A DNA stretch of 36,612 bases from Pseudomonadota bacterium (lineage in GTDB: Bacteria; Desulfobacterota; Desulfarculia; Desulfarculales; Desulfarculaceae). Below, in pieces: positions 7,997 through 35,337 of the stretch. The notes beneath the pieces are model-generated. The model saw nothing but the letters and a program-made list of their open reading frames with translations. It made no database searches and was not told where the DNA came from. The position numbers were made by a program, and so were the translations under genes. The number at the start of each line of letters is the position of its first letter. Position 1 is the first letter of the stretch. Location of the stretch: positions 1 to 36,612 of the forward strand of contig JAHJPG010000003.1 in the NCBI GenBank assembly GCA_018819925.1. Reading direction: 5' to 3'.

Positions 7997-8731
7997 CTAG
8001 GCGTCGTGTTTATGCTTGCGGTGCAGCAGGCGCTTGAGCAGCCAAGTGGCCAGGGCCAACAGCACCAGCGCGCCCACGGCCAGGGCCAGGTCCTCCCAGA
8101 GGGGCTGGTGCCAGATGTAGCGCAGGCGGTCGGCGAATACGGTGATGGCCAGGGTCACCGGGATCATGCCCAAAATGGTGCCCACCACGAAATACATAAG
8201 CCTGAGCCGGGAGGCCCCGGCGGCCAGGTTGATGAGAGTGAAGGGGGCCACCGGCAGCACCCTGAGAAGGATGACCGCCGCTATGCCGTGGTCGGCCATT
8301 TTTTGGCTCACCTTGCCGATCTTGCCGCCGGTGAACTTGGAAAGGGTGTCGTGCCCGGCCAAGAAGCCCAGGCCATAGACGGCCACGGAACTGAGCAGGG
8401 CCCCGGTCAAGGCATAGGCCGCGCCCAGCCAGGGGCCGAAGATCATGCCCGTGGCCCCGATCAACAGCACCACCGGCAGCATGACCAGGCAGCCCGCGAA
8501 AAAGCAGACCAGGGCCAGCAGGGGGGCCAGGGGAAGGCCTTGGACCTGGGCGGCCCAACGGTGCAGGCTGTGCTCGTCCAGCATGCCGCTGAAGGGCCCC
8601 CAACGCCAAAAGGCGCACAGGGACAAAAGCACGGCCGGCACAATGGCCGCCTTCAAGCAGCGCCGCCAGCCCCAGTGATGGTGGGCCGGGCCCCCCGGCC
8701 CGGAGCTTGCCCTGGGTGACACATCAGCCAT
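7997..8731 (-). CDS. TVP38/TMEM64 (VTT/SNARE-associated) family membrane protein
   Basis: 244 aa with about six hydrophobic segments: near 28-45, 68-90, 93-118, 150-172, 178-200 and 215-235. The conserved VTT core is visible: LPVVLLIGATGMIFGPWLGAAYA, then GHDTLSKFTGG, then ILLRVLPVAPFTLINLAAGAS. DedA/TVP38 relatives are inner-membrane proteins implicated in lipid scrambling and envelope homeostasis; the exact substrate here is unknown. The tail is basic and His-containing (RKHKHDA). It is the upstream gene of a possible two-gene unit with the PAS-LuxR regulator (86-base gap) and is divergent from the nickel-type transporter. Confidence 0.85.
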   Translation of the reverse strand: MADVSPRASSGPGGPAHHHWGWRRCLKAAIVPAVLLSLCAFWRWGPFSGMLDEHSLHRWAAQVQGLPLAPLLALVCFFAGCLVMLPVVLLIGATGMIFGPWLGAAYALTGALLSSVAVYGLGFLAGHDTLSKFTGGKIGKVSQKMADHGIAAVILLRVLPVAPFTLINLAAGASRLRLMYFVVGTILGMIPVTLAITVFADRLRYIWHQPLWEDLALAVGALVLLALATWLLKRLLHRKHKHDA

Positions 8732-8781
8732 GCGTGGCGCTCTCCATCTTCTTTTCCGCCAAGGCCGTTCCTGGCGGGTGT

Positions 8782-8810
8782 TTGCTCAAACCAAGACCCT
8801 AGGATAACAA
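8782..8810 (+). promoter_or_regulatory. Possible sigma70 promoter for the metal transporter
   Basis: TTGCTC (8782-8787), 17-base spacer, TAACAA (8805-8810). Each hexamer matches the consensus only partly. Position is right for a transcript with a leader of about 100 bases ahead of the start at 8914. Confidence 0.35.
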
Positions 8811-8811
8811 G

Positions 8812-8875
8812 CCGCCGGGCCGGGGGCTAGCCGCAGGCGGGCACTGGAACAAACGGTCCTGGCCCCCGGCGGCGG
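8812..8875 (+). other. Long G+C-rich leader hairpin before the metal transporter
   Basis: Left arm CCGCCGGGCCGGGGGC (8812-8827) pairs with right arm GCCCCCGGCGGCGG (8862-8875) with a two-base bulge, enclosing about 34 bases. It starts near the predicted transcription start, so the whole hairpin would lie in the mRNA leader. There is no U-run. I do not recognise a known riboswitch class; a metal-responsive leader is speculation. Confidence 0.45.
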
Positions 8876-8913
8876 GAGGTGGTACCCTTGCCGCCACAAT
8901 CCGGAGGATGCCC

Positions 8914-9687
8914 ATGGAGTTACAGGTTCTTCTAGCCACCGCCATATCGATCGGCTTCATCCACACCCTCATCGGTCCGGATCATTACCTGCCCTTTATC
9001 CTTATCGGCCGGGCGCGGGGATGGCCCCTGGCCAAGGTGATCAACCTCACCGTGTGGTGCGGCATCGGCCACGTTCTCAGCTCCGTGGGCCTGGGGGTGT
9101 TGGGGGTGGCCTTCGGGGTGGCGGTGGGCCTGCTGGAAGGCGTGGAAACGGTGCGTGGCGACCTGGCCTCCTGGCTGCTCATCGGTTTCGGGGTGGCCTA
9201 TGCCGCCTGGGGTCTGCGCATCGGCCTGCGCTCCAGCGAGCACCAGCATCCTCACCCTCACCCCCACGAGCACCCCCAAGAGCCGGATTCAGGCCACCAG
9301 CACCCCCATGAGGAAAACCACGGCCACGGCCAGGCCCACACCCACCAGCACCAACACTCCCACAGCCACCTGGGCCGCCATGTCCATCCCCACGGCGACC
9401 CCAAGACGGTGACTCCATGGGCCCTGTTCATCATCTTCGTGCTGGGCCCCTGCGAACCCCTGATCCCCATCCTCATGTACCCCGCCGCCCAGGGCTCCTG
9501 GTGGGACCTTTTGTGGGTCACCCTGGCCTTTGGGGTGGTTACGGTGGGCACCATGACCGCAGTGGTGCTTTTGGTGTCCAAGGGTCTGTTGCACCTGCGT
9601 TTGGGCTGGATGGAGCGCTACGTGCATGCCTTGGCCGGGGTGATAATCGCCTTGTCCGGTCTGTCCATCAAGCTGCTGGGCTTGTAG
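8914..9687 (+). CDS. Nickel/cobalt-type transporter with His-rich loop (NiCoT/RcnA/UreH-like)
   Basis: 257 aa from the ATG at 8914. The in-frame ATG at 8908 abuts GGAGG (8903-8907), whereas 8914 sits six bases after it, so I prefer 8914. About six membrane segments flank a cytoplasmic or periplasmic loop. The first helix holds HTLIGPDHYLPF, a version of the metal-binding HxxxxDH motif of NiCoT/UreH/RcnA relatives. The loop, about residues 110-158, is packed with His-Pro and His-X repeats (HPHPHPHEHP, HTHQHQHSHSHLGRHVHPHG), as in RcnA-like metal carriers. A later FVLGPCEPLIP segment is also family-like. Whether it imports or exports, and which metal, cannot be decided. Convergence with a LarA-family nickel enzyme supports nickel. 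Confidence 0.75.
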   Translation: MELQVLLATAISIGFIHTLIGPDHYLPFILIGRARGWPLAKVINLTVWCGIGHVLSSVGLGVLGVAFGVAVGLLEGVETVRGDLASWLLIGFGVAYAAWGLRIGLRSSEHQHPHPHPHEHPQEPDSGHQHPHEENHGHGQAHTHQHQHSHSHLGRHVHPHGDPKTVTPWALFIIFVLGPCEPLIPILMYPAAQGSWWDLLWVTLAFGVVTVGTMTAVVLLVSKGLLHLRLGWMERYVHALAGVIIALSGLSIKLLGL

Positions 9688-10951
9688 GTCCGCCGGTCAG
9701 CAGGGGGCTCAAGTAGGGCCCCTCGGGCATCACCGCCACCCGGGTATGCCCGGCGCAAAGTTCGGCCAGGGCGGCGGGCAGGTCCTCCACCCACTCCAGG
9801 CCGAAGGAGCGGGCCTCATCGGCTTGCAGGCCCGGAGCATACAAAAGCACCCGCCCCAGGTGCTCCAAACACTGGAAATAGGCCTGGGCTCCCCACTGAT
9901 CCACCACGAAGTTGGCCGGGTCGCCATGTTTGGCCTTAAAACCCCGGGGAGTTGCGCAGCCGCGCACCATGCGGCAGTAGTCCTCGCCGCCCAGGCCCTG
10001 GGCGCATTCGGTGATCCACAGCACCGTGCCGCCGGGCCGGGTTATGGCCTTGGCTGCCAAGAGGCCTTTGGAGGCCTGATATAGGGTGGCGTCCAGGGGG
10101 TGGCCGCCTCCGCTGGTTATCACCAGGTCATAGGGCTCGTCCACCGGCGCCACCGTCTGGCGGGCGGCCAGGGCGCAGCCGTGCAAAAAGGCCTCGGGGA
10201 AGGCGCCGGCAAACACGCCCAGGGGCCGGCGCCGGCGGTCTATGACCACGTTGAGCATGAAATCCAGGCCGGCGGCCCGGGCCACCCGGCCCACCTGCTC
10301 CTGGAAGGGGTTGTTCTCCAGGCCGCCCGAGCGCAGGCCGGGATGGTTTATCATCTCGAAGGAGTGCATGAACTTCATGCTCTCCAGGCTGGCCAGGCCC
10401 GGCAGGATGGATTTGCCCCCGCCGGAAAAGCCGGCAAAGGGATGGGGCTCGATGAGCCCGGTGACTATCTTGAGCTGGGCCTCAAGGTAGCGGCGGTTCA
10501 CCGCGATGGGCGCGCCCTGGATGGTGTCCACCACCTCCAGAGATGAGTGGTACTGGCAGTCGTGGTTAACCACCCGCCAGTTGCCGGCCACCTCCGGGCC
10601 CAGCAGCTCTTCCACCTCCGGGCCCAGGTTGGGGCGGTGCATGCCCGTGGCGATGAGAATGGTGACGGCTTCCCGTGGGACTCCGGCCCCCAGCAGGGTG
10701 TCCAGCAGGGGCGGCAGCAATAGGCGATTGGGCACCGGCCGGGTGATGTCGCTGACCACGATGCAGGCGCTGGACTTGCCCCGGGCCAGCCTGGCCAGGG
10801 GCGGGCCGCCCAGGGGATCGGCCAGGGCGGCGGCCAGCGCGCCGGCCGGATCGGCCAGGGGGGGCACCTCGGAGGTTTGCAGAACCGCCGCCCCGGCGGG
10901 CAACTCCAGGGTCAGTTCTTCGCGGCCGCAGGGAATTTGCACGGACGGCAT
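9668..10951 (-). CDS. larA: LarA-family nickel-pincer enzyme (lactate racemase-like)
   Basis: 427 aa, typical for LarA. Residues known in Lactobacillus LarA to hold or use the nickel-pincer nucleotide have counterparts: D68 and R71 (SDITRP), H105 (GMHRP), H170 (EPHPFAG), K180 (SGGGKSILPG, the cofactor-attachment lysine), H196 (MHSFEM), and Y291, Q292 and K295 (YQASKG). LarA homologues act on a range of 2-hydroxy acids, so lactate is not assured. The start has CGGGAGGAAAC upstream. Its 3' end overlaps the 3' end of the nickel-type transporter by 20 bases. The cofactor-building larB, larC and larE genes are not in the window. Confidence 0.85.
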   Translation of the reverse strand: MPSVQIPCGREELTLELPAGAAVLQTSEVPPLADPAGALAAALADPLGGPPLARLARGKSSACIVVSDITRPVPNRLLLPPLLDTLLGAGVPREAVTILIATGMHRPNLGPEVEELLGPEVAGNWRVVNHDCQYHSSLEVVDTIQGAPIAVNRRYLEAQLKIVTGLIEPHPFAGFSGGGKSILPGLASLESMKFMHSFEMINHPGLRSGGLENNPFQEQVGRVARAAGLDFMLNVVIDRRRRPLGVFAGAFPEAFLHGCALAARQTVAPVDEPYDLVITSGGGHPLDATLYQASKGLLAAKAITRPGGTVLWITECAQGLGGEDYCRMVRGCATPRGFKAKHGDPANFVVDQWGAQAYFQCLEHLGRVLLYAPGLQADEARSFGLEWVEDLPAALAELCAGHTRVAVMPEGPYLSPLLTGGPTSPAA

Positions 10952-24928: not shown

Positions 24929-25675
24929 GTGCTTACGGTCAAGGACCTCATCGTCTTCTACGAAAACGCCATCGCGGTCAACGACCTGTCCATGGAGGTG
25001 CGCGAAGGCCAGATCGTGGGGGTCATCGGCTCCAACAGCGCGGGCAAGACCACCCTCATGAACACCCTGAGCGGCCTCATCTGGGACATGCGCCTCAAGG
25101 AGAGACGCCGGGGCGGCGAGCGCATCACCGTGATGGGCCAGGTGTCGCTGTTTGACGAGGACATCAGCGACCTGCCGGCCTATCGCCGGGCCCAGGCGGG
25201 CATCGTCTTGTGCCGGGAGCGCCATCCCATCTTCCCCGACTCCACCGTGGTGGAGAATTTGAGGATCGCCGGCTATCTGCGCAGCTGGGCCCAGGTGAGA
25301 AAGGGGATCGAACTGAGCTTCGACCTGTTTCCCAACCTGGCCCGCCACCGGGGGCGCAAGGCCGGCTATCTCTCCGGTGGAGAGCAGCAGATGCTGGCCA
25401 TCGGCATGGCCATGATGGTGGGGCCCAAGCTGCTGCTGTTGGACGAGCCGCTCCTGGGGTTGAGCCCGGCCATGCAGACCCAGGTGGTGAAGGCCATCAA
25501 GGACGTGCGCCGGCACACCGGGGTCACCCTGGTCATCGCCGAGCAGTTCGCCCGGCCGCTGCTGCCCTGGCTGGATTTCACCTATGTCATCGAGAACGGC
25601 ATGCTCACCCTCACCGGGCCCGGGCCCGAGCTGATGGACAACCCCGAGATCAAGAGCGCCTACTTTGGCGTTTAA
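24929..25675 (+). CDS. livF: ABC importer 2 ATPase (LivF) with an extra segment
   Basis: 248 aa, GTG start with GGCGGAGG about eight bases upstream. Walker A GSNSAGKTT (34-42), signature LSGGEQQMLAIGMAM, Walker B LLLLDEPLLGLSP. Between Walker A and the RERHPIFPDSTV region it is about 12 residues longer than ordinary LivF, with a basic run (RLKERRRGGERI, about 55-66). The H-loop His appears to be Gln (AEQFARP), which is common in LivF. Three bases after livG. Confidence 0.85.
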   Translation: MLTVKDLIVFYENAIAVNDLSMEVREGQIVGVIGSNSAGKTTLMNTLSGLIWDMRLKERRRGGERITVMGQVSLFDEDISDLPAYRRAQAGIVLCRERHPIFPDSTVVENLRIAGYLRSWAQVRKGIELSFDLFPNLARHRGRKAGYLSGGEQQMLAIGMAMMVGPKLLLLDEPLLGLSPAMQTQVVKAIKDVRRHTGVTLVIAEQFARPLLPWLDFTYVIENGMLTLTGPGPELMDNPEIKSAYFGV

Positions 25676-25688
25676 CAGGGAGAGCGCT

Positions 25689-27326
25689 ATGCAGCCGCCG
25701 GTGGAGATAACCAACATCCCCGAGACTTTTGACCGAGTGGCCGCCCTGAACCCGGACAAGCCCGCCGCCTGGTACCTGGGCACCGCTTTCAGCTATGGCC
25801 GCTTGCAACAAATGGCCGACAGCTTCGCCGCCGGGCTCTTGCGCCGGGGGGTGGAGCCTGGCGACCGGGTGGTGCTTTATTTGCCCAATTGCGTGCAATG
25901 GCTCGTAGCCTGGCTGGGCATCCAAAAGGCCGGGGCGGTGGCCGTGCCCATCACCCCCGTCTACACCCCCTTCGACGTGGCCTACATCGCCGGGGACACC
26001 GACGCCCGCGCCATCGTATGCACCGACCGCAACTACGGCTACGTGGCCAAGGTGCGCAAGGAACACCCCTTCCAAACCGTGGTGGTCAGCGGCATGGCCG
26101 ATGTCCTGCCCGGGTACAAACGGTTTTTCGGCTGGGCCTTTGACAAGGTGCCCAACGGCCGGGTGGGCAAGAGCGCCCACACGGTTTGGCTTGCCGATCT
26201 CATCAAGGAGCCGGGCCAGCCTCCGGCGGCGGGCAGCGATCCGGACTCCCCGGCGGAGATCATCTACACCGGCGGCACCACCAAACACCCCAAGGGGGTG
26301 CCCATAAGCCACCGCCTGCTCCTGGAGTGCGCCCACGAGCAGATATCCGCCAGCGCGGCCCTGTTCGAGGTGACCGACAACATGGTGTTGGGCTCCGCCC
26401 CCCTGTTCCACATCCTGGGGCAGACCACGGCCCTGGGAACCATTCTGGTGCATGGCGGCACCATCATATTGCAGCCCAAGGTTAACCTGGACGCCATGAT
26501 GCATGCGGTGACCACCCACCAGGCCACCACCTTTGTTGGGGTGCCGGCCCTGTACCGCATGATCCTGGAGCACGACCGCCTGGACCAGTACGACCTGAGT
26601 TCGCTGAAATACTGTTTCTGCGGGGGCGACGTGCTGCCCCAGGACATCGCCAAACGCTGGCTGGAGCGCTTCGGCTGGCCCATCTACATCGGCTACGGGG
26701 CCAGCGAAACCGTGGGCGGGGTGTGCATGAGCCCGGCGGACCGGCAAAATCCGCCCGGCGCCATGGGACTGGTGCTGCCCTCCAAACAGGTGCGCATCGT
26801 GGAACCGGCCTTCTTGACTCCAGTGGAGCTCGGCGAGTCTGGCGAGTTGCTGGTGCATTCCGAGCCCATGGTCAGCGCCTACTGGAACAAGCCCCAGGAG
26901 ACCGCCGAAGCCTTCGTGGAGTTGGACGGCAAGCTCTTCTACCGCACCGCCGACGTGGTGCGCCAGGACGAGCAGGGCTACTTGTACTTCGTGGACCGCA
27001 CCGTGGACACCATCAAGCACAAGGGCTACCGGGTCAGCGCCTCGGAGATCGAATGCATTTTGCAGGACCACCAGGCGGTGGTGGCTTCGTGCGTGGTGGG
27101 CATCCCCGACGAAAAGGTGGGCGAGCGCATCAAGGCCTACGTGGTGCTGAAAAAGGACATCAAGGGCATTACCGGCTACGACCTCATCGCCTTCTGCCGC
27201 AAGCGCATGGCCGCCTACAAGGTGCCCCAGTACATCGAGTTCCGCGACATGCTGCCCAAATCCAAGGTGGGCAAGCTCCTGCGGCGCGAGGTGCGCGGCG
27301 AGGAAGCCTCCCGCCGCGCCGGTTAA
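25689..27326 (+). CDS. AMP-forming carboxylate-CoA ligase, last gene of importer 2 operon
   Basis: 545 aa from the ATG at 25689 (AGGGAGAG upstream); an earlier TTG at 25665 lies in livF. ANL-superfamily motifs: P-loop YTGGTTKHPKG (about 192-202), GYGASE (A5 region), YRTADVV with DRTVDTIKHKGYRVSASEIE (hinge and A8) and a C-terminal lysine in SKVGKLLRRE that should catalyse adenylation. It makes an acyl-CoA from a carboxylate, ATP and CoA. It is 13 bases after livF and probably transcribed with the importer, so it would trap the imported acid as its CoA ester. Substrate (fatty, aromatic or dicarboxylic) unknown. Confidence 0.88.
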   Translation: MQPPVEITNIPETFDRVAALNPDKPAAWYLGTAFSYGRLQQMADSFAAGLLRRGVEPGDRVVLYLPNCVQWLVAWLGIQKAGAVAVPITPVYTPFDVAYIAGDTDARAIVCTDRNYGYVAKVRKEHPFQTVVVSGMADVLPGYKRFFGWAFDKVPNGRVGKSAHTVWLADLIKEPGQPPAAGSDPDSPAEIIYTGGTTKHPKGVPISHRLLLECAHEQISASAALFEVTDNMVLGSAPLFHILGQTTALGTILVHGGTIILQPKVNLDAMMHAVTTHQATTFVGVPALYRMILEHDRLDQYDLSSLKYCFCGGDVLPQDIAKRWLERFGWPIYIGYGASETVGGVCMSPADRQNPPGAMGLVLPSKQVRIVEPAFLTPVELGESGELLVHSEPMVSAYWNKPQETAEAFVELDGKLFYRTADVVRQDEQGYLYFVDRTVDTIKHKGYRVSASEIECILQDHQAVVASCVVGIPDEKVGERIKAYVVLKKDIKGITGYDLIAFCRKRMAAYKVPQYIEFRDMLPKSKVGKLLRREVRGEEASRRAG

Positions 27327-27367
27327 ACCCTAACTTTCCGGCCCAGCCGGGCGAGAGCTTGTTTGGC

Positions 27368-27422
27368 TTGACAGCTCCCGCCGGGACGGGTAATGTGCGT
27401 AAAACAAACCGACCGGACGGTT
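27368..27422 (+). promoter_or_regulatory. Sigma70 promoter and TetR-type operator, locus 1
   Basis: TTGACA (27368-27373), 17-base spacer, TAATGT (27391-27396), then the near-palindrome AACCGACCGGACGGTT (27407-27422, 14 of 16 symmetric). The operator covers the predicted transcription start and reaches to seven bases from the tetR ATG. The block AAAACAAACC...GATTTTATG around it (27401-27431) is identical to that of locus 2 (29794-29824). Confidence 0.75.
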
Positions 27423-27428
27423 GATTTT

Positions 27429-27722
27429 ATGTCATCGATACCCAAGGGCCGAAAACGCCGCCGCCAGCTATACGCCGCCGCCGCCCGCCTCTTCGCGGCC
27501 CGCGGCTACCATGCCACCAGCCTGCGTGAGCTGGCCGAGGCCCTGGGGCTCAACAAAAGCTCGCTCTACCACTACTTCGACTCCAAGCAGGAGTTGCTCT
27601 GCCATCTATTGGACGACTACATCTGCGAGGCCTTGGCCGAAATTCAGTCCTTGTGCTCCGGCGATAGGGCCCCGTGGAGTGGCACAATGGCGACCTGTTC
27701 CCCGGATGGGTTTCGATCGTGA
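27429..27722 (+). pseudogene. TetR-family regulator, 3' two-thirds lost (paralogue of the gene at 29822)
   Basis: Starting at ATG 27429 the frame gives an intact TetR helix-turn-helix (GRKRRRQLYAAAARLFAARG, TSLRELAEALGLNKSSLYHYF, SKQELL) that matches the intact regulator at 29822 almost residue for residue up to AEIQSLCSG (about 27666). There it breaks off into unrelated sequence and stops at 97 aa. The ligand-binding and dimer domain, about 120 residues, is missing. The sequence that replaces it is an IS1380-family transposase remnant. The upstream start at 27393 is rejected because it would lie in the promoter. A residual DNA-binding stub could still be made. Confidence 0.8.
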
Positions 27723-28017
27723 CCAACTCGACCCTTCGCACCAGGGAGGTGGTCCGGGCCTACAATGGCCGGGCCTATGTTGAAAACCGGATCAAGGTGG
27801 CCGAGAACACCCTGCGCTGGGACAAGACCAGTTGTCATCGGTTCGACGCCAACCAGGCTCGGCCGGAGATGAGAGCCTTGGCCTACAACCTCCCGCACAT
27901 GATCAGGGAGTTTCATTTGCAGGGAAGGATATCAAGCGGTACATGGGGTGGATGGTCCATAGGATCATCAAGGCAGATTCAAGGATTCCCTACCACGGCC
28001 GGCGCTGGTGGGTTTAA
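27668..28017 (+). pseudogene. IS1380-family transposase remnant (C-terminal part, frameshifted)
   Basis: The frame through 27674 encodes VEWHNGDLFP, IVTNS, VVRAYNGRAYVENRIKVAEN, LRWDKTSCHRFDANQAR and LAYNLPHMIREFHLQG, which I recognise as the C-terminal part of IS1380-type DDE transposases. After about 27932 the match continues in another frame (KDIKRYMGWMVHRIIKADSR, then IPYHGRRWWV, stop at 28017), so there is a frameshift. The N-terminal catalytic part and the left end of the element are absent. The remnant directly abuts the broken TetR gene, so insertion plus deletion probably destroyed it. Confidence 0.75.
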
Positions 28018-28023
28018 GATTTC

Positions 28024-28064
28024 TTTTTTTAGATTCCCGGTGATTCGCCTGGAATCTAAAAAAA
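28024..28064. repeat. 14-bp perfect inverted repeat before the second CoA ligase
   Basis: TTTTTTTAGATTCC (28024-28037) and GGAATCTAAAAAAA (28051-28064), 13 bases apart. The T-run is on the 5' side, so it is not a normal rightward terminator. It ends two bases before the ligase ribosome site (CGGAGGG, 28066-28072). It could be the scar of the IS end or a leader structure. Confidence 0.6.
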
Positions 28065-28079
28065 TCGGAGGGTCGTATT

Positions 28080-29636
28080 ATGGATGATATTTGCACACTA
28101 CGGACTGTGTTGGACCGTAATCTGGAATACAATCCGCAAAGGGTTGCCCTTGTTGAGGGAGACCGACATTATTCTTTTCTAGAATTTACCCAGCGCACCA
28201 GAGCCATGGGAAACGCCCTTTTTAATCTAGGCCTGAAAAAGGGCGATCGGGTGGCGATCCTGAGCAAGAACAGTATGGAAAATGCCGAGTCCTATTTCAG
28301 CATCCCCAACGCCGGTCTGGTTCTGGTGATGCTCAACTTTCGTCTGGCGCCAAGGGAAATCCTAACCATCCTGGAGGATTCAGGCGCATCAGTTTTGATG
28401 GTGAACAAAGAGTACATGGGCCATGTGGACCAGATAAAAGATAAGCTTGATTTCATTAAAAAATTTATCTTCATAGGTCCCCTTGCCGAAGCACCAGAGG
28501 GGTGGCTTCACTATGAAACCTTGATCGAAGATTCTTCTTTCGAGGTGCCACCAACCGAACTGCGCGAAAACGATCTGGCCGCCCTTATGTACACCAGCGG
28601 CACCACCGGATCTCCCAAGGGATGTATGGCCACCCATAGAAATTTTTATCACGTGGGCAGAAGTCTCACCTTGGAACTTAAGATGACCCGGGAAGATGTG
28701 GGCATTATCGCCTCGCCCCTTTTTCATGCCACTGGCGAGGTGGTGTTAATGAATGGAATGTACAGTGGCACAACCTCTGTAATAATGCCGCAATGGGATG
28801 CCCCCCAATTTCTAGCCCTGGTGGAAAAATATAAAGTGACTACCGGGATGCTGGCGACGCCCATGCTTCTTTTCCTGTTGGAGAGCCCGGAAGTCGATAA
28901 ATATGACCACAGCAGCTTGAAAAAGATTTTTTTCGCGGGAGCCCCGGTAACTCCGGTCGTTTTCCAGCGAGCCATAGAGCGGTTTGGCAATGTATGGGTG
29001 CATCTTTTTGGCACCACTGAAACTGTCGGCCAGACCACGATACTGAAAACCGAGGATATTGAGGATGCCTTAAGCACGGGCAACATGGAAATCCTGGGGT
29101 CCTGCGGACGCTCCTTTGCCGATATGCAAAGCATAGTGGTGGATGGCGATGACCGCCCGGTTTCCCCCGGTGAAGTGGGCGAGATGAAAGTACGAGGCTT
29201 GGGCACCACTCTCGGGTACTGGAATAAACCGGAAGAAACACGCGACGATTTTAGGAACGGCGCCTACTATTCCCAGGACCTGTGCCGGGTCGACGAACAG
29301 GGCTTCATCTATGTGGTGGACCGGAAAAAGGATATGATCATCACCGGAGGGGAAAACGTCTATCCCGCCGAAGTGGAAAATATCCTTTACAAACATCCCG
29401 GCGTGTCCATGGCGGCGGTTATCGGAACCCCGGATGAAAAATGGGGGGAAGCGGTGACGGCCATGATCGTCAAAAGGGGAGACGAGCCGCTGGACGCTGA
29501 GGATATCAGAGCTTTTGTCCGCGGGGAAATCGCGGGTTACAAAGTGCCCAAAAATATTTTGTTCGTTGATTCGCTTCCTATGAGTGCCAGCGGCAAGATC
29601 CTGAAATTTAAATTGCGGACGGAATTCTCCGCCTGA
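28080..29636 (+). CDS. AMP-forming acyl-CoA ligase, probably acquired by transfer
   Basis: 518 aa. ANL motifs: P-loop YTSGTTGSPKG (about 177-187), FGTTET, YYSQDLCRVDEQGFIYVVDR, KKDMIITGGENVYPAEVE and the adenylation lysine in SASGKILK. The long-chain/medium-chain fatty acid or aromatic acid ligase group is likely; substrate open. The base composition is unlike its neighbours: for instance 28441-28500 has only 23 G+C of 60 and codons ending in A or T are frequent, while the flanking genes are strongly G/C-ending. With the IS1380 remnant beside it this suggests horizontal acquisition. The nearest upstream promoter is that of the broken tetR at 27368. It is less similar to the ligase at 25689 than a recent duplicate would be. 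Confidence 0.88.
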   Translation: MDDICTLRTVLDRNLEYNPQRVALVEGDRHYSFLEFTQRTRAMGNALFNLGLKKGDRVAILSKNSMENAESYFSIPNAGLVLVMLNFRLAPREILTILEDSGASVLMVNKEYMGHVDQIKDKLDFIKKFIFIGPLAEAPEGWLHYETLIEDSSFEVPPTELRENDLAALMYTSGTTGSPKGCMATHRNFYHVGRSLTLELKMTREDVGIIASPLFHATGEVVLMNGMYSGTTSVIMPQWDAPQFLALVEKYKVTTGMLATPMLLFLLESPEVDKYDHSSLKKIFFAGAPVTPVVFQRAIERFGNVWVHLFGTTETVGQTTILKTEDIEDALSTGNMEILGSCGRSFADMQSIVVDGDDRPVSPGEVGEMKVRGLGTTLGYWNKPEETRDDFRNGAYYSQDLCRVDEQGFIYVVDRKKDMIITGGENVYPAEVENILYKHPGVSMAAVIGTPDEKWGEAVTAMIVKRGDEPLDAEDIRAFVRGEIAGYKVPKNILFVDSLPMSASGKILKFKLRTEFSA

Positions 29637-29760
29637 AAATTTAATTATGCGTTGCATCGGAGAAAGGGAGAGGGGTTAGGCGTTTGAGATGACACACCCC
29701 CTTGTCAGCGGACTATTAAAACCGGTTTTGGGCTCCGGGCGGGCGGCGGCGAGCTTTTGC
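29637..29760. other. Gap after the second ligase
   Basis: No gene seen. A perfect 12-base palindrome AAAACCGGTTTT lies at 29718-29729, about 30 bases before the -35 of tetR locus 2; it could be an extra operator, but there is no second copy to support this. Confidence 0.35.
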
Positions 29761-29815
29761 TTGACAGCCCCCGCCGAGGAGGCTAACCTTCACAAAACAA
29801 ACCGACCGGACGGTT
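29761..29815 (+). promoter_or_regulatory. Sigma70 promoter and TetR-type operator, locus 2
   Basis: TTGACA (29761-29766), 17-base spacer, TAACCT (29784-29789), then AACCGACCGGACGGTT (29800-29815) over the predicted transcription start, directly before the tetR ATG at 29822. Same layout as locus 1, and probably the autoregulated promoter of the whole tetR-acyl-CoA dehydrogenase operon. Confidence 0.78.
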
Positions 29816-29821
29816 GATTTT

Positions 29822-30421
29822 ATGCCTTCGCTTCCCAAAGGACGCCAACGCCAAAAACAGCTCTACGACGCCGCAGCCCGTCTTTTCGCGGCCTGCGGCT
29901 ACCACGCCACCAGCCTGCGCGAGCTGGCCGAGGACCTGGGACTCAACAAAAGCTCGCTCTACCACTACTTCGATTCCAAGCAGGAGTTGCTCTACCACCT
30001 ATTGGACGACTACATCTCCGAGGCCTTGGCCGAGATACAATCCCTGTGTTCCACCGGCAATAACCCGGAGGAAAAGCTGGCGAACTTCATGCGCTACTAC
30101 ACCCGGTTTTACGCCCGCGACCTGGATCGTCTGGCCCTGTTGGTAAACGAAGTGGACAGCCTGGAGCCCCGTTTCCGCGAGGTGCTTAGGGAAAAGGAGC
30201 GCCGCTACCTGGCCGCGCTCACCGATATCTTCGAGCAACTGCGCGGCCAAGGGCGCCTCAAGGACGTGCCCTCCACCGTGGCCGCCTTCGCCTTTTTCGG
30301 CATGGTGCACTACACCTTCAAGTGGTACCGCCCCCGGGGCAAGGTGAGCCCTGAGGAGCTCTCGGAGATGTTCTGGGAAATCTTCGGGCGCGGGGTCCTG
30401 CGGCCCCAGGAGGAAAGATAG
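29822..30421 (+). CDS. TetR-family repressor, intact copy
   Basis: 199 aa. N-terminal helix-turn-helix (RQKQLYDAAARLFAACGYHA, TSLRELAEDLGLNKSSLYHYF) followed by a helical ligand domain (NFMRYYTRFYARDLDRLALL to the C-terminus), the usual TetR length. A weak GGACGG inside the operator is the only ribosome site, so operator and translation start overlap. Three bases separate it from the next gene, so it leads an operon for acyl-CoA oxidation and electron transfer. By analogy with FadR/PsrA-type regulators of the family an acyl-CoA ligand is plausible (inference). Confidence 0.88.
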   Translation: MPSLPKGRQRQKQLYDAAARLFAACGYHATSLRELAEDLGLNKSSLYHYFDSKQELLYHLLDDYISEALAEIQSLCSTGNNPEEKLANFMRYYTRFYARDLDRLALLVNEVDSLEPRFREVLREKERRYLAALTDIFEQLRGQGRLKDVPSTVAAFAFFGMVHYTFKWYRPRGKVSPEELSEMFWEIFGRGVLRPQEER

Positions 30422-30423
30422 CC

Positions 30424-32427
30424 ATGAATCCCCTGCGCATGCCTTTCTGGGGGGTGGATGCGGCTTGGCTCTTCTACCTCCTGGCCGCCCTGGCCATGGC
30501 CTGCCTGGGCCTGGGCCTGTGGGAAAAGATTTCCCTGTGGAGGCAGGGACGCCGGGCCGCGCCGGCGCCCAGCAGCAAGCAGGCCCTGGGCCCGGCCCTG
30601 GCCGACGTGCTCCTGGGACGCCGCATCTGGCGGGGCGGCCGCATTGCCGGGCTCATGCACCTCATGCTGCTGTGGGGCTTCCTGGGCCTGTTCCTCGGCA
30701 CCTGCGCCGTGGCCGTGGATCACTACCTGATTTCGTTTCTGCACGGCCGGGTGTATCTGTGGTTCTCCGCCGGCCTGGAGGCCTGTGGCCTGCTCTTGGT
30801 GCTGGGCCTCATGTTGGCCTTGGCGCGGCGCTGGCTTTTGCCGGTGGCCCGTCTGGAGCGGCGCCCCGACGACACCCTGCTGCCCCTGTGGCTGCTGGCC
30901 GTGGCCTGCGGCGGTTTCATGGTGGAGGCGGCTCGCCTGGCCGCCACCGCGCCGCCCTGGGGGGCGTGGTCCTTTGTGGGATATGGCCTGGCCGGGCTTT
31001 TCCCCGGCCCCGAAGCGGCCCGTGAGCTGTTCCCCTGGCTGTGGTGGTCCCATGCCCTGGTCAGCCTGGGCTTCATCGCCTGGTTGCCCTGGTCCAAGCT
31101 GGCCCACGCCATCGCCGCTCCGGCCAGCCTCTATCTTCAGGGCCAACCCCTGGCCGTGCTGGCCGTGGCCGCCGAGGAGGGCGACCTGGCCGCCCTGGGG
31201 CTACGGCACCTTTTGCACCTGGACGCCTGCACCCGCTGCGGCCGCTGCGTGGAGGCCTGCCCCTCGGCCCGGGCCGGGGAGCCCTTCTCGCCCCGGGATG
31301 TGCTGCACCGGGCCCGCCGCCAGGCCCGTCTGAAATACAGCCCCCTGTACCGCCTGCCCTGGCTGCGGGGCCGCCGGCAAGCCCTGTTGGAGCGCGACCG
31401 CGCCGCCGGCTGGGAGGACGCCTGGTATTGCACCACCTGCCGGGCCTGCCTGGAGGTCTGTCCGGTGCAGGCCGCGCCCATCGAGATGGTGCGCAAGCTG
31501 CGGGCCGGTCTGGTGGAGCAGGGCTCGGCGGTGCCCCCCCCGCTCATGGACACCCTGGAGAAACTCCACCGCTACGGCAATCCTTGGGTGGCCAAGAAGG
31601 GGGCCAAGGCCGCCTGGGCCGCAGGGCGGGACATACCGGACCTTAGCAGGTCCGGCCAGGAGGCCGACTGGCTCTACTTCGTGGGTTGCACCACCTCCAT
31701 CGACACACGGGCCCAGGGCATCGCCCGCGCCTTGAGCGACGTCTTCACCCACTGCGGGGTCTCCTTCGGCACCCTGGGCAAAAAGGAGCCCTGCTGCGGG
31801 GACATCGCCCGCCGCCTGGGCGAGCAGGGGCTCATGGAGGAGCAGATCGAGGCCACCCGGGACCTGCTCAACGGGCGCGGCCTCACCCGCCTCGTATGCA
31901 CCTCGCCCCACTGCTTCGACACCATCAAAAAGGTGCATCCCCTGTTCCTGGAGGAAGGCCTGCCCTTGCGGGTGCTGCACTACAGCCAGATGCTGCATCG
32001 CCTGTGGCGACAGGGACGGCTTACCTTCGACCATCCCATGCCGTTGAAGGTCACCTTTCACGACCCCTGCTTTTTGGCCCGGCACAACCGCATCGTGGAC
32101 GAGCCCCGTGGGCTGCTCGGGGCCATCCCCGGCCTGGAGCTGGTGGAGATGGCCGAGCACGGCCTGAACGCCCTGTGCTGCGGTGGCGGGGGAGGGCGCA
32201 TGTGGCACGAAATACCGGGCCAGGCCAACCTGGCGGTGCGCCGCCTGGAGCAGGCTGCCGCCACCGGGGCGGAACTGGTGGTCACCGCCTGCCCCCTGTG
32301 CCTGATAATGCTGGAAGACGCCCGCAAGACCGGCGGGTTCGAAGACAAGTTTGGCATCATCGATCTTAGCGAGTTGGTGGCCAGGGCCCTGAGGCTCACG
32401 GCCGCCATGGACGAGGAGGCCGTATAA
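30424..32427 (+). CDS. Membrane Fe-S oxidoreductase, probable ETF:(mena)quinone oxidoreductase (DUF224/HdrD-like with NarI-like domain)
   Basis: 667 aa. An N-terminal membrane part (about 1-240) has five or six helices and several histidines (H79, H100, H210, H228) suitable for haem b, as in NarI-type subunits. Then come two 4Fe-4S motifs: CTRCGRCVEACP (269-280) and CTTCRACLEVCP (336-347). The C-terminal half has the CCG repeats of HdrD/GlpC proteins: EPCCGD, HDPCFLARHN, LCCGGGGGRMW and TACPLC. Such proteins next to etfBA in Geobacter and Syntrophomonas pass electrons from acyl-CoA dehydrogenase through ETF to menaquinone. Here etfB, etfA and an acyl-CoA dehydrogenase follow directly, supporting the same role. 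Confidence 0.88.
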   Translation: MNPLRMPFWGVDAAWLFYLLAALAMACLGLGLWEKISLWRQGRRAAPAPSSKQALGPALADVLLGRRIWRGGRIAGLMHLMLLWGFLGLFLGTCAVAVDHYLISFLHGRVYLWFSAGLEACGLLLVLGLMLALARRWLLPVARLERRPDDTLLPLWLLAVACGGFMVEAARLAATAPPWGAWSFVGYGLAGLFPGPEAARELFPWLWWSHALVSLGFIAWLPWSKLAHAIAAPASLYLQGQPLAVLAVAAEEGDLAALGLRHLLHLDACTRCGRCVEACPSARAGEPFSPRDVLHRARRQARLKYSPLYRLPWLRGRRQALLERDRAAGWEDAWYCTTCRACLEVCPVQAAPIEMVRKLRAGLVEQGSAVPPPLMDTLEKLHRYGNPWVAKKGAKAAWAAGRDIPDLSRSGQEADWLYFVGCTTSIDTRAQGIARALSDVFTHCGVSFGTLGKKEPCCGDIARRLGEQGLMEEQIEATRDLLNGRGLTRLVCTSPHCFDTIKKVHPLFLEEGLPLRVLHYSQMLHRLWRQGRLTFDHPMPLKVTFHDPCFLARHNRIVDEPRGLLGAIPGLELVEMAEHGLNALCCGGGGGRMWHEIPGQANLAVRRLEQAAATGAELVVTACPLCLIMLEDARKTGGFEDKFGIIDLSELVARALRLTAAMDEEAV

Positions 32428-32432
32428 AACCC

Positions 32433-33218
32433 ATGAAAATACTGGTGCTGGTAAAGAACGTCCCCGAGGTGGCCGAGGCCGAATTGGAGATAGAGCAGGG
32501 GGCCTTGGACCTCGAGGATCTGGAGATGGTGGTCAACGAGTGGGACAACTACGCGGTGGAGGAGGCGGTGCGCCTCACCGAGGCCGCCGGCGGAGATGTC
32601 CACCTAATGACCCTGGGGGGTGAGGACGACGAGGACGTGCTGCGGCGCGGCCTGGCCATGGGGGCCCACTCGGCCACCCATTTGTGCGACGAGGCCTTCG
32701 AGGGCTCGGACCCGACCACCCTGGCCCGCGTCTTCGCCGCTGCCGTGAAGGACGGCGGCTACGACCTGATCCTCACCGGGGTGCAGAGCGCCGACCTGGG
32801 CCAGGCCTCCACCGGGGTGCTCCTGGCCCAGGAGTTGGGCCTGCCCCACGCCACCATGGCCATCGCCCTGGAGCCCGGCGCCGGGGAGGTCACCGTGACC
32901 CGGGAGCTGGAGAACAACACCAGCGAAAAGGTGGCCTTGCCCCTGCCCGCCGTGGTCACGGTGCAGTCGGGCATCAACCAGCCCCGCTACGTGTCCATCA
33001 TGGGCATCCGCAAGGTGCGCAAGATGACCATAGAGATGCTCGAGGCCGGCGACCTGGGCCTGGAGTCCCAGGCCCTTGGCCGGGAGGCATCCAGCGTGGC
33101 CGGGCAGTCGCTGGCCCTGCCGCCGGTGGGAGAGGGGGCCCAGATGCTCACCGGCAGCCTGGATAGCGTCTGCGGCCAGGCGGCGGCCATCCTGCGGGAG
33201 AAGGGAGGCCTGGCATGA
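32433..33218 (+). CDS. etfB: Electron transfer flavoprotein beta subunit
   Basis: 261 aa. Family segments: N-terminal MKILVLVKNVPEV, NEWDNYAVEEAVRLTEA, VQSADLGQASTGVLLAQELGLP and the C-terminal SIMGIRKVRKMTIEML. It forms a heterodimer with EtfA and binds AMP or a second FAD. I cannot tell from the sequence whether it bifurcates; the membrane oxidoreductase next door argues for the simple quinone-linked type. Overlaps etfA by four bases. Confidence 0.92.
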   Translation: MKILVLVKNVPEVAEAELEIEQGALDLEDLEMVVNEWDNYAVEEAVRLTEAAGGDVHLMTLGGEDDEDVLRRGLAMGAHSATHLCDEAFEGSDPTTLARVFAAAVKDGGYDLILTGVQSADLGQASTGVLLAQELGLPHATMAIALEPGAGEVTVTRELENNTSEKVALPLPAVVTVQSGINQPRYVSIMGIRKVRKMTIEMLEAGDLGLESQALGREASSVAGQSLALPPVGEGAQMLTGSLDSVCGQAAAILREKGGLA

Positions 33219-34183
33219 GCGGCGTGCTGGTTATCGCCGAACACCGCCAGGGCGCCCTGCGCGAGGCCACCCTGGAGTGCCTGGGCGCGGCCTTGTCCCT
33301 GGCCCCGTCCCTGGGCGGCCAGGTCACCGCCGCCCTGCTGGCCGATGATCCCCAGTCCCTGGCCGGGGAGCTGCAAGGCCGGGCCCACGGGCTCAAGCTT
33401 TACGCCCATCCCGAGTTGGCGGCCTACAACCCGGAGCTGTATCTGCCGGTGCTGGCCGATATCATCGCGGCCAGCCAGCCGTCCCTGATCTTGATGCCCC
33501 ACTCCAGCCAGGGCATGGATCTGGCCCCGGCCCTGGCCGGCCGCCTGGGCCTGCCCCTGGTCACCGACTGCGCCGGGCTGTCTTGGTCCGATGGGGCGCT
33601 ATCTGTACAGCGCAACGTGTACGGCGGCAAGGCGGTGCTGGATCTGGCCCTAAAGCCGGCGGCCACGGTGGTGGCCACCCTCCAGGCCGGGGCCTTCCAG
33701 GCCCCGCCGGCCGGCGCGGCGCCCACCGCCAGCGACCGCACCGCCCTCACCGAGCTGGCCCCCCGCCACGCCCGGCGCTTCTTGGAATACCTGGCCGGCG
33801 TGGTGGAGGACGTGGACATCGCCGAGGCCGACATCCTGGTTTCGGTGGGCCGGGGCATCGGCGGGCCGGACAACGTGCCCCAGGCCCAGGCCCTGGCCGA
33901 GGCCCTGGGGGCCACCCTGTCCTGCTCCCGGCCGGTGGCCGACGCCGGGTGGCTGCCCAAGAGCCGCCAGGTGGGCACCAGCGGCAAGACGGTGCGGCCC
34001 AAAATCTACCTGGCCCTGGGCATCAGCGGGGCCTTCCAGCACCAGGCGGGCATGAACAACAGCGGCACCATCATCGCGGTCAACTCCGACCCCCGGGCCC
34101 CCATCTTCCAGGTGGCCCACTACGGCATCGTGGCGGACATGTTCGAGGTGTTGCCCAAACTCACCGAGCTTTTCAAGGGCTAA
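33215..34183 (+). CDS. etfA: Electron transfer flavoprotein alpha subunit
   Basis: 322 aa. The C-terminal FAD domain is well conserved: VSVGRGIGGPDNVPQAQALA, SCSRPVADAGWLPKSRQVG, SGKTVRPKIYLALGISGAFQ, QAGMNNSGTIIAVNSD and the final APIFQVAHYGIVADMFEVLP. It accepts electrons from the acyl-CoA dehydrogenase encoded next. ATG start inside the etfB stop (ATGA). Confidence 0.93.
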   Translation: MSGVLVIAEHRQGALREATLECLGAALSLAPSLGGQVTAALLADDPQSLAGELQGRAHGLKLYAHPELAAYNPELYLPVLADIIAASQPSLILMPHSSQGMDLAPALAGRLGLPLVTDCAGLSWSDGALSVQRNVYGGKAVLDLALKPAATVVATLQAGAFQAPPAGAAPTASDRTALTELAPRHARRFLEYLAGVVEDVDIAEADILVSVGRGIGGPDNVPQAQALAEALGATLSCSRPVADAGWLPKSRQVGTSGKTVRPKIYLALGISGAFQHQAGMNNSGTIIAVNSDPRAPIFQVAHYGIVADMFEVLPKLTELFKG

Positions 34184-34194
34184 GGGAGCCAGTC

Positions 34195-35337
34195 ATGGAC
34201 TTTTCTCTGAGCAAGGAGCAGCGGGACATCGTCAAGGCGGCCCGGGAGTTCGCCCAGGGCGAGTTTACCGGCCGGGCCCTGGAGTTCGACCGCAGCGAGA
34301 GCTTCGACCTGGACATCTGGCGCGCCGCCTGCGATCTGGGCTTCGTGGGCACCTTCATCGCCGAGGAGTACGGCGGGGCGGGCCTGGGCTTTTTGGAGCA
34401 CAGCCTTATCACCGAGGAGTTCTGGGCCGTGGACCCGGGCTGCGGGCAGGGCGTGCTATCCGTGACCTTTGGCTCAGAGTTGCTTCAGCTGTTCGGCAGC
34501 GAGGAGCAGAAGCACATGGTGCTGCCCGAGCTGGTGGAGGGCAAGGCCATCATGTGCTCTTGCATCACCGAGCCCGAGGCGGGCAGCGACCCCAGCCGGG
34601 CGGCCACCACGGCAGTCAGGGACGGCGACGAATGGGTCATCAACGGCTCCAAGATGTTCATCACCAACGGCACCACGGCCAAGTGGGCCCTGATCTTCGC
34701 GGCCACCGACCCGGACAACTCCGACCGCCACGCCAGGCACAGCTTTTTCCTCGCACCTACCGATGGGCCGGGTTTTCAGGCCACCAAGCTCACCGGCAAG
34801 CTGGGCATCCGGGCCTCGGACACCGCCGAGGTGGCCCTGAGCAATCTGCGGGTGCCCGCGGACGCCCTGGTGGGCCAGTTGGGTCAGGGCTTCAGCCAGC
34901 TCATGGCCTTTTTCAACCGCACCCGCCTGCACATCTGCGCCCAGGCCGTGGGCCTGGCCCGGGGCTGCCTGGAGGAGAGCGTCAAGCACCTCAAGGGGCG
35001 GATGCAGTTCGGCCAACCCCTGGCCGGCTTCCAAGTCAACCGCTTCAAGGTGGCGGAGATGGCCACCAGAATCCGAGCCTCGCGCAACCTCTACTGGGAG
35101 GCGGCCTGGTCCATGGACCGGGGCAAGGTGGATCACGGGCTCATCGCCATGGCCAAGTGGTTCAGCGCCCGCACTGCGGTGGAGGCGGCGGACGAGGCCC
35201 TGCAGATTCACGGCGGCTACGGCTACTTTGACGAGTACAAGGTGCAGCGCCTCTACCGCGACGCCAAGATCCTGGAGATATACGAGGGAACCAAGGAGGT
35301 GGAGAAGATCATCGTGGCCGGCACCTTACTCGGCTAG
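34195..35337 (+). CDS. Acyl-CoA dehydrogenase
   Basis: 380 aa from ATG 34195 (AAGGGAG upstream), the standard soluble acyl-CoA dehydrogenase length. N-terminal MDFSLSKEQRDIVKAAREFA, flavin/substrate segments CITEPEAGSDPSRA and INGSKMFITNG, DEALQIHGGYGYFDEY and the catalytic base E364 in IYEGT. It introduces the alpha-beta double bond in an acyl-CoA and hands electrons to EtfAB. Chain length or ring specificity cannot be read. Last gene of the tetR operon; the repeat copy C begins at its stop codon. Confidence 0.92.
   Translation: MDFSLSKEQRDIVKAAREFAQGEFTGRALEFDRSESFDLDIWRAACDLGFVGTFIAEEYGGAGLGFLEHSLITEEFWAVDPGCGQGVLSVTFGSELLQLFGSEEQKHMVLPELVEGKAIMCSCITEPEAGSDPSRAATTAVRDGDEWVINGSKMFITNGTTAKWALIFAATDPDNSDRHARHSFFLAPTDGPGFQATKLTGKLGIRASDTAEVALSNLRVPADALVGQLGQGFSQLMAFFNRTRLHICAQAVGLARGCLEESVKHLKGRMQFGQPLAGFQVNRFKVAEMATRIRASRNLYWEAAWSMDRGKVDHGLIAMAKWFSARTAVEAADEALQIHGGYGYFDEYKVQRLYRDAKILEIYEGTKEVEKIIVAGTLLG

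Follow-up and report, generated by a model that had tools for sequence, protein, structure and literature searches.

The question raised by this locus is how a gene for an acyl-CoA ligase came to stand behind the promoter of a broken TetR regulator, and whether that promoter now drives it. The window, that is, the whole stretch of 36,612 nucleotides analysed here, is C41:1-36612 of a 4.03-Mb assembly (G000) in 145 contigs, and the genes of the locus are read on its plus strand. LigA, an acyl-CoA ligase gene (25665-27326; PF00501 4.7e-86), lies behind liv-type transporter genes and is followed by a promoter (P1), the stub of a TetR gene (TetR1), a slice of an IS1380-family transposase gene, a palindrome, the acyl-CoA ligase gene in question (ligB), a further promoter (P2) and an intact TetR-family regulator gene (TetR2). 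Downstream of TetR2 come the genes of an Fe-S oxidoreductase, two electron-transfer flavoproteins (ETF) and an acyl-CoA dehydrogenase (30424-35337; Fe-S/CCG domains, PF01012, PF00766, PF00441), in an order that is the same in the related genomes G004, G005 and G007. LigA has the same position in G004 and G005; in G007 only its 3' end is present, at the start of the contig. In other genera of the family (L127, L128, L130 and L132) the TetR gene is oriented divergently to the liv operon and does not lie 3' of LigA, which implies that the locus was rearranged either in this genus or in theirs. The longest exact run shared by the TetR1 and TetR2 repeats is 32 nt, and two other assemblies have ligB in this same place; a misassembly is therefore unlikely.

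The TetR1 stub (27429-27722) consists of a TetR-homologous DNA-binding domain extending to about 27675 and an IS-derived tail up to the stop codon. Pfam detects TetR_N (PF00440, 2.7e-19), and the domain search found no C-terminal domain. TetR homology is lost near 27675, the DNA match to G004 and G005 stops at 27678 and the frame ends at 27722, inside the slice; the preliminary description of this DNA had likewise seen a broken TetR gene running into IS1380 code. TetR2 (29822-30421) has both TetR_N (PF00440, 6.8e-17) and the PF17932 ligand domain (8.4e-28), which places it in the TetR_C_24 group, whereas the stub has TetR_N only. Relatives of TetR2 with 83-91% identity occur in three other genomes of the genus, and TetR2 matches the structure 3vpr, which we take to be PfmR, at 3.2e-23. 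The promoter and 5' end of both TetR genes form a direct repeat of 298 nt, 86% identical (27362-27659 and 29755-30052). Counted position by position, so that codons with several changes enter more than once, replacement/silent changes from a majority reference are 15/8 in the stub and 8/13 in TetR2, and 6/8, 4/10 and 6/16 in the TetR2 genes of G004, G005 and G007, respectively. The stub looks relaxed by these numbers, which are small. An open frame at 27674-28087 starts within the stub ORF, runs through the IS slice and the palindrome and extends 8 nt into ligB; this overlap would in principle allow continuous translation from P1 to ligB, and it may be due to chance.

P1 (27368-27428) has TTGACA at 27368-27373, a 17-nt spacer and TAATGT at 27391-27396, while P2 (29761-29821), the promoter of TetR2, has TTGACA, 17 nt and TAACCT. 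Directly 3' of the -10 box of both promoters lies the same operator, AACCGACCGGACGGTT, at 27407-27422 in P1 and at 29800-29815 in P2, and these are its sole exact copies in the whole 4.03-Mb assembly. When up to two mismatches are allowed, the counts in this assembly are no higher than those of the reversed control pattern, so that the case for an operator is made by the exactness and the position of the two copies. The sites of its core, ACCGGACGGT, listed in G004, G005 and G007 (5 sites) are all at the corresponding place. P1 and P2 of this genome are identical over 31 nt, from AAAACAAACC to the ATG with the operator included, and differ at 10 of the 33 positions that precede this stretch; the identity is modest evidence for use of the operator of P1. 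An intact promoter and operator facing ligB, with the source gene broken and an intact TetR2 carrying the identical operator, is what the preliminary description had reported, and this part of it stands. So does its statement that the ligase has no clear promoter of its own: a consensus scan listed no sigma-70-like site between 27396 and 28080, although the same scan also misses P1 and P2, both of which have poor -10 boxes. The stop codon of ligB in G007 (L125, 2132-2134) falls within the -35 box of P2 (2131-2136).

The sequence between the stub and ligB contains two elements, the IS1380 slice and the palindrome. The IS1380 code scores 63.6 bits against NF033539 (1.3e-17; cut-off 180), as a fragment would, and matches PF13701 above its cut-off (1.8e-16), and it thus belongs to the transposase family. 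Compared with unbroken relatives from the phylum (446 codons in L199 and 453 in L198), the slice (27677-28009) corresponds to a 3'-proximal stretch of some 333 nt of the transposase gene, is 71% identical to both at the nucleotide level, bears small indels and lacks both element ends. No full IS1380 element with both terminal inverted repeats was found, this being a remnant only. The putative end of related IS elements, CCTGGATTATGCCGCA, has no match in the window at up to three mismatches, and a test with it thus found none of the IS-type ends that ISEcp1-like mobilisation would have left on either side of ligB, which may have ends of another type. Inverted pairs I3-I5 do span ligB, with arms in coding or G+C-simple sequence, unlike the putative IS end. 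A second IS1380 fragment of the same assembly (G000:C5:46984-47219, L006) is 80% identical to the slice, and two weaker ones lie at C61:21652-21752 and C135:9809-9976.

The near-perfect palindrome (28024-28064; 41 nt, arms of 20 nt with 90% complementarity, hairpin z -7.1) is found directly 5' of the putative ribosome-binding site of ligB, GGAGGG (28067-28072), which lies 7 nt 5' of the ATG. No counterpart was seen at the corresponding place in G005 or G007, this assembly contains no second copy of the exact arm 14-mer, and viral_contigs gave no match to the palindrome. With one mismatch allowed, the arm pattern matches in 45 of 297 genomes of the phylum, this one among them. For L174 and L175, the two other loci that have an exact arm, Pfam gave no transposase family in the three longest ORFs, a set to which six L174 ORFs of 92-130 aa do not belong. 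We rejected the palindrome as the right end of the IS remnant, for the slice breaks off before the transposase gene is complete, and L199 has putative ends that differ from the palindrome, sharing with it the first letters CCTGGA only; the palindrome may be an IS1380-type end of another kind. It was also rejected as an intrinsic terminator, since it has its T run 5' and its A run 3' and went unlisted in the terminator scan.

The comparison with related genomes bears most directly on how the arrangement arose. ligB is present in three of the eight genomes of the genus (G000-G007), namely this one, G007 (91% protein identity; an assembly that is 82% complete) and G005 (86%), while the other five gave best matches of 39% or less, or none at threshold. 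In all three ligB lies between LigA and TetR2. The order in G005 and G007 is LigA, P1 with its operator, a wrecked TetR remnant, ligB, P2 and TetR2 (G005, L126: P1 at 7936, remnant 7997-8190, ligB 8209-9762, TetR2 at 9952; G007, L125: P1 at 356, remnant 417-556, ligB 575-2128, TetR2 at 2192), and the ligB leader ATCGGAG is common to the three genomes. The remnants, of 194 nt in G005 and 140 nt in G007, are derived from the 5' end of a TetR gene. For G005, the alignment score is 132.5, compared to 71.4 (sd 8.5) for shuffled sequences, none of 500 reaching it, and to 60-85 for five other pieces of L126 used as a control. The G007 remnant, which has lost its ATG, scores 82.5 against 45.0 (sd 7.6), again with none of 500 shuffles reaching it, the shuffles being the sole control in this case. 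At this locus, a DNA search (E up to 0.001) gave no match to IS1380 in G005 or G007; elsewhere it found none in G005 and one in G007. As the same layout occurs there without IS1380, the arrangement does not depend on the element, which is unlikely to be what brought ligB, and the proposal of the preliminary description that an IS1380 event lay behind it is not supported. G004 has LigA, a promoter and a single TetR gene, and no ligB. The order of the four species is weakly supported (84 and 55), so that the lack of ligB in G004 may be a loss or the ancestral state.

ligB (28080-29636) is covered by PF00501 (6.9e-80) and PF13193 (1.4e-21) and thus encodes an AMP-forming acyl-CoA ligase; its best NCBIfam match is NF004837, with 470.1 bits against a cut-off of 476. 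Its GC3 of 0.597 compares with 0.82-0.93 in the neighbouring genes and 0.76-0.94 in the further frames of the window selected as gene-like, one exception being a minus-strand frame (34474-35211, GC3 0.624) opposite the acyl-CoA dehydrogenase gene. The ligase had been described earlier as A+T-richer, which is true of this genome (0.60) and not of G005 (0.86); the value is 0.70 in G007 and 0.85 in G010, and the neighbouring genes measured, taken from four species of the genus, have 0.80-0.93. Because ligB is not A+T-rich in G005, a foreign origin is not to be inferred from composition. Vertical ancestry in the group, which the same description had set against its own reading, holds in part, the gene having one and the same place in the three genomes that possess it. 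Between this genome and G005, ligB is identical at 57% of third sites, compared with 74-80% for LigA, TetR2, Fe-S, etfB and etfA and 80-86% for livK, livH and livM, despite an ordinary protein identity, and neither the tree nor the composition of ligB fits cleanly with those of its neighbours. The divergence would be explained if, in the line to which this genome and G007 belong, an A+T-richer relative had replaced ligB; alternatively, the composition of ligB might have shifted in place. Third-site patterns with G010 as the outgroup indicate a gain of A+T both here and in G007, at third sites that are probably saturated. Matches above 40% were found in G005, G007 and G010 (67%) only, with 59 other relatives searched, at threshold, and the best match of the wider search was 39% among the 80 listed of 584 confirmed loci, a selection in which near relatives may be left out. 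In G010, which belongs to another genus of the family, the ligB relative (G010:C222, L197) adjoins an ORF that by eye resembles an acyl-CoA dehydrogenase.

Judging from these sequences, we lean towards a history in which a duplication would have placed ligB behind the TetR promoter P1, TetR1 would then have been lost and P1 would now drive ligB under the control of TetR2. An autoregulated unit of TetR promoter and gene would have come to flank ligB in two copies, giving the ancestral order LigA, P1, TetR1, ligB, P2, TetR2, Fe-S oxidoreductase, ETF genes and acyl-CoA dehydrogenase, and this duplication would be older than the split of these species. The redundant TetR1 would subsequently have been lost, by decay and deletion in G005 and G007 and by truncation with the IS1380 slice here, while P1 and its operator are still present, most likely driving the transcription of ligB. 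TetR2 would be the working repressor of both P1 and P2, with relief by acyl-CoA predicted, and ligB and the electron-transfer operon would respond together to the same acyl-CoA-type inducer. This is the best explanation that we can offer, and there are points against it: in the columns where both align, P1 has been conserved between G005 and G007 no better than the remnant, and the -10 boxes are poor. The missing ATG of the G007 remnant, as a fossil would show, also counts against it. Polarity is possible as well, since some 0.7 kb with the IS slice and a strong palindrome intervene between P1 and ligB.

A different history is possible but less likely, in which P1 and the TetR1 stub are a later copy of P2-TetR2, made by a second duplication in this lineage and separate from the remnant of G005 and G007. 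It can be combined with capture of ligB by P1. In the tree of the TetR 5' ends, TetR2 of this genome clusters with the stub (support 80), the two have five sites in common against the other three TetR2 genes, compared with two sites for the stub with G004 alone and one for TetR2 with G004 alone, and the stub is far less decayed than the remnants of G005 and G007. Gene conversion would yield the same site pattern, however, and conflicting patterns exist, such as four sites that the stub shares with G004 and G007. Moreover, the distance from the start of the repeats to the -35 box is 1-6 nt in each of the three species, as expected from a single old event. Given the five shared sites, an old duplication needs a later gene conversion, so that either gene conversion would have kept the stub and TetR2 alike or the stub would be a later copy. 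The fuller proposal is tentative and rather unlikely: at least two lineages would independently have reduced the same duplicate autoregulator to its promoter and operator, a redundant repressor gene thus becoming, more than once, a regulated promoter of the adjacent gene, and gene conversion would have kept the operators identical here.

It seems rather unlikely, too, that P1 is a fossil and that ligB is read from a promoter of its own in the A+T-rich gap (28017-28080) or from the LigA operon. LigA and its operon do lie upstream on the same strand, and here the A+T-rich stretch with the palindrome is directly 5' of ligB; the scan, with the reservation already made, listed no sigma-70-like site in the gap, and G005 and G007 are without the A+T-rich stretch yet have kept P1 gap-free. 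What P1 has retained relative to TetR1 can be read from the pairs. P1 and P2 agree at 51 of 61 positions in G005, compared with 120 of 185 for the remnant and TetR2 (p 0.006); the direction is the same in G007 (47/61 vs 92/138, p 0.18), and in this genome P1 and P2, taken whole (51/61), are no more alike than the stub and TetR2 (171/198, p 0.68). The identical 31-nt stretch of this genome gives p 0.03 against the stub, a stretch picked after inspection. Relative to P2 and TetR2, P1 has no gaps in G005 and G007, and the remnants have 22 and 62 gap columns, respectively. When G005 is aligned directly with G007, P1 has no gap columns and the remnant 56, but in the aligned columns the two are equally alike (53/61 and 120/139, p 1.0), which is a point in favour of a fossil. 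The evidence for selection on P1 is mixed.

It is highly improbable that, in this lineage, TetR1 was broken by the insertion of IS1380 and a foreign ligase, newly arrived, thereby came under P1: the stub and the slice do abut, ligB is the compositional outlier here and the stub has remained well preserved in this genome, but in G005 and G007 ligB has the same site and its leader begins alike, 3' of P1 and a broken TetR gene and without IS1380, which is strong evidence, and the slice lacks both ends, with no end-like sequences of the related element in the window. Promoter capture as such is plausible from the sequence comparison, a modest case, and IS1380 is probably not its cause.

Insertion-driven promoter capture is exemplified by ISEcp1 with beta-lactamase genes. 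Both there and here a mobile element and a promoter lie 5' of another gene; the promoter at this locus is from a broken host regulator instead of an IS, and the layout exists without the IS. A limited literature search, which carries little weight, found no account of this locus. The ACCGACCGG-type operator of the PaaR and PfmR regulons is present at P1 and P2, judged by likeness to the sites given in the parts of the publications cited below. PaaR of Burkholderia cenocepacia is a TetR-type repressor of phenylacetate genes with the operator ACCGACCGGTCGGT, which is one base off ACCGACCGGACGGT here, and its target is a CoA-thioester pathway; the cited parts of that work describe no broken duplicate (PMC2770484). 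PfmR (TTHB023) of Thermus thermophilus, a TetR-family regulator of fatty-acid genes, has a predicted site, TACCGACCGNTNGGTN, that resembles the operator here; its gene neighbourhood is different, and the cited parts describe no duplicated promoter (PMC7022988).

The locus is another example of an already known sort of regulatory rewiring. As relatives share the layout without the IS, a new regulatory link is not necessarily due to an IS fragment that lies next to a broken gene. If the proposed history is true, the single TetR gene, the decayed remnant and the preserved stub would form a natural series in which the duplicate of a repressor becomes a plain regulated promoter.
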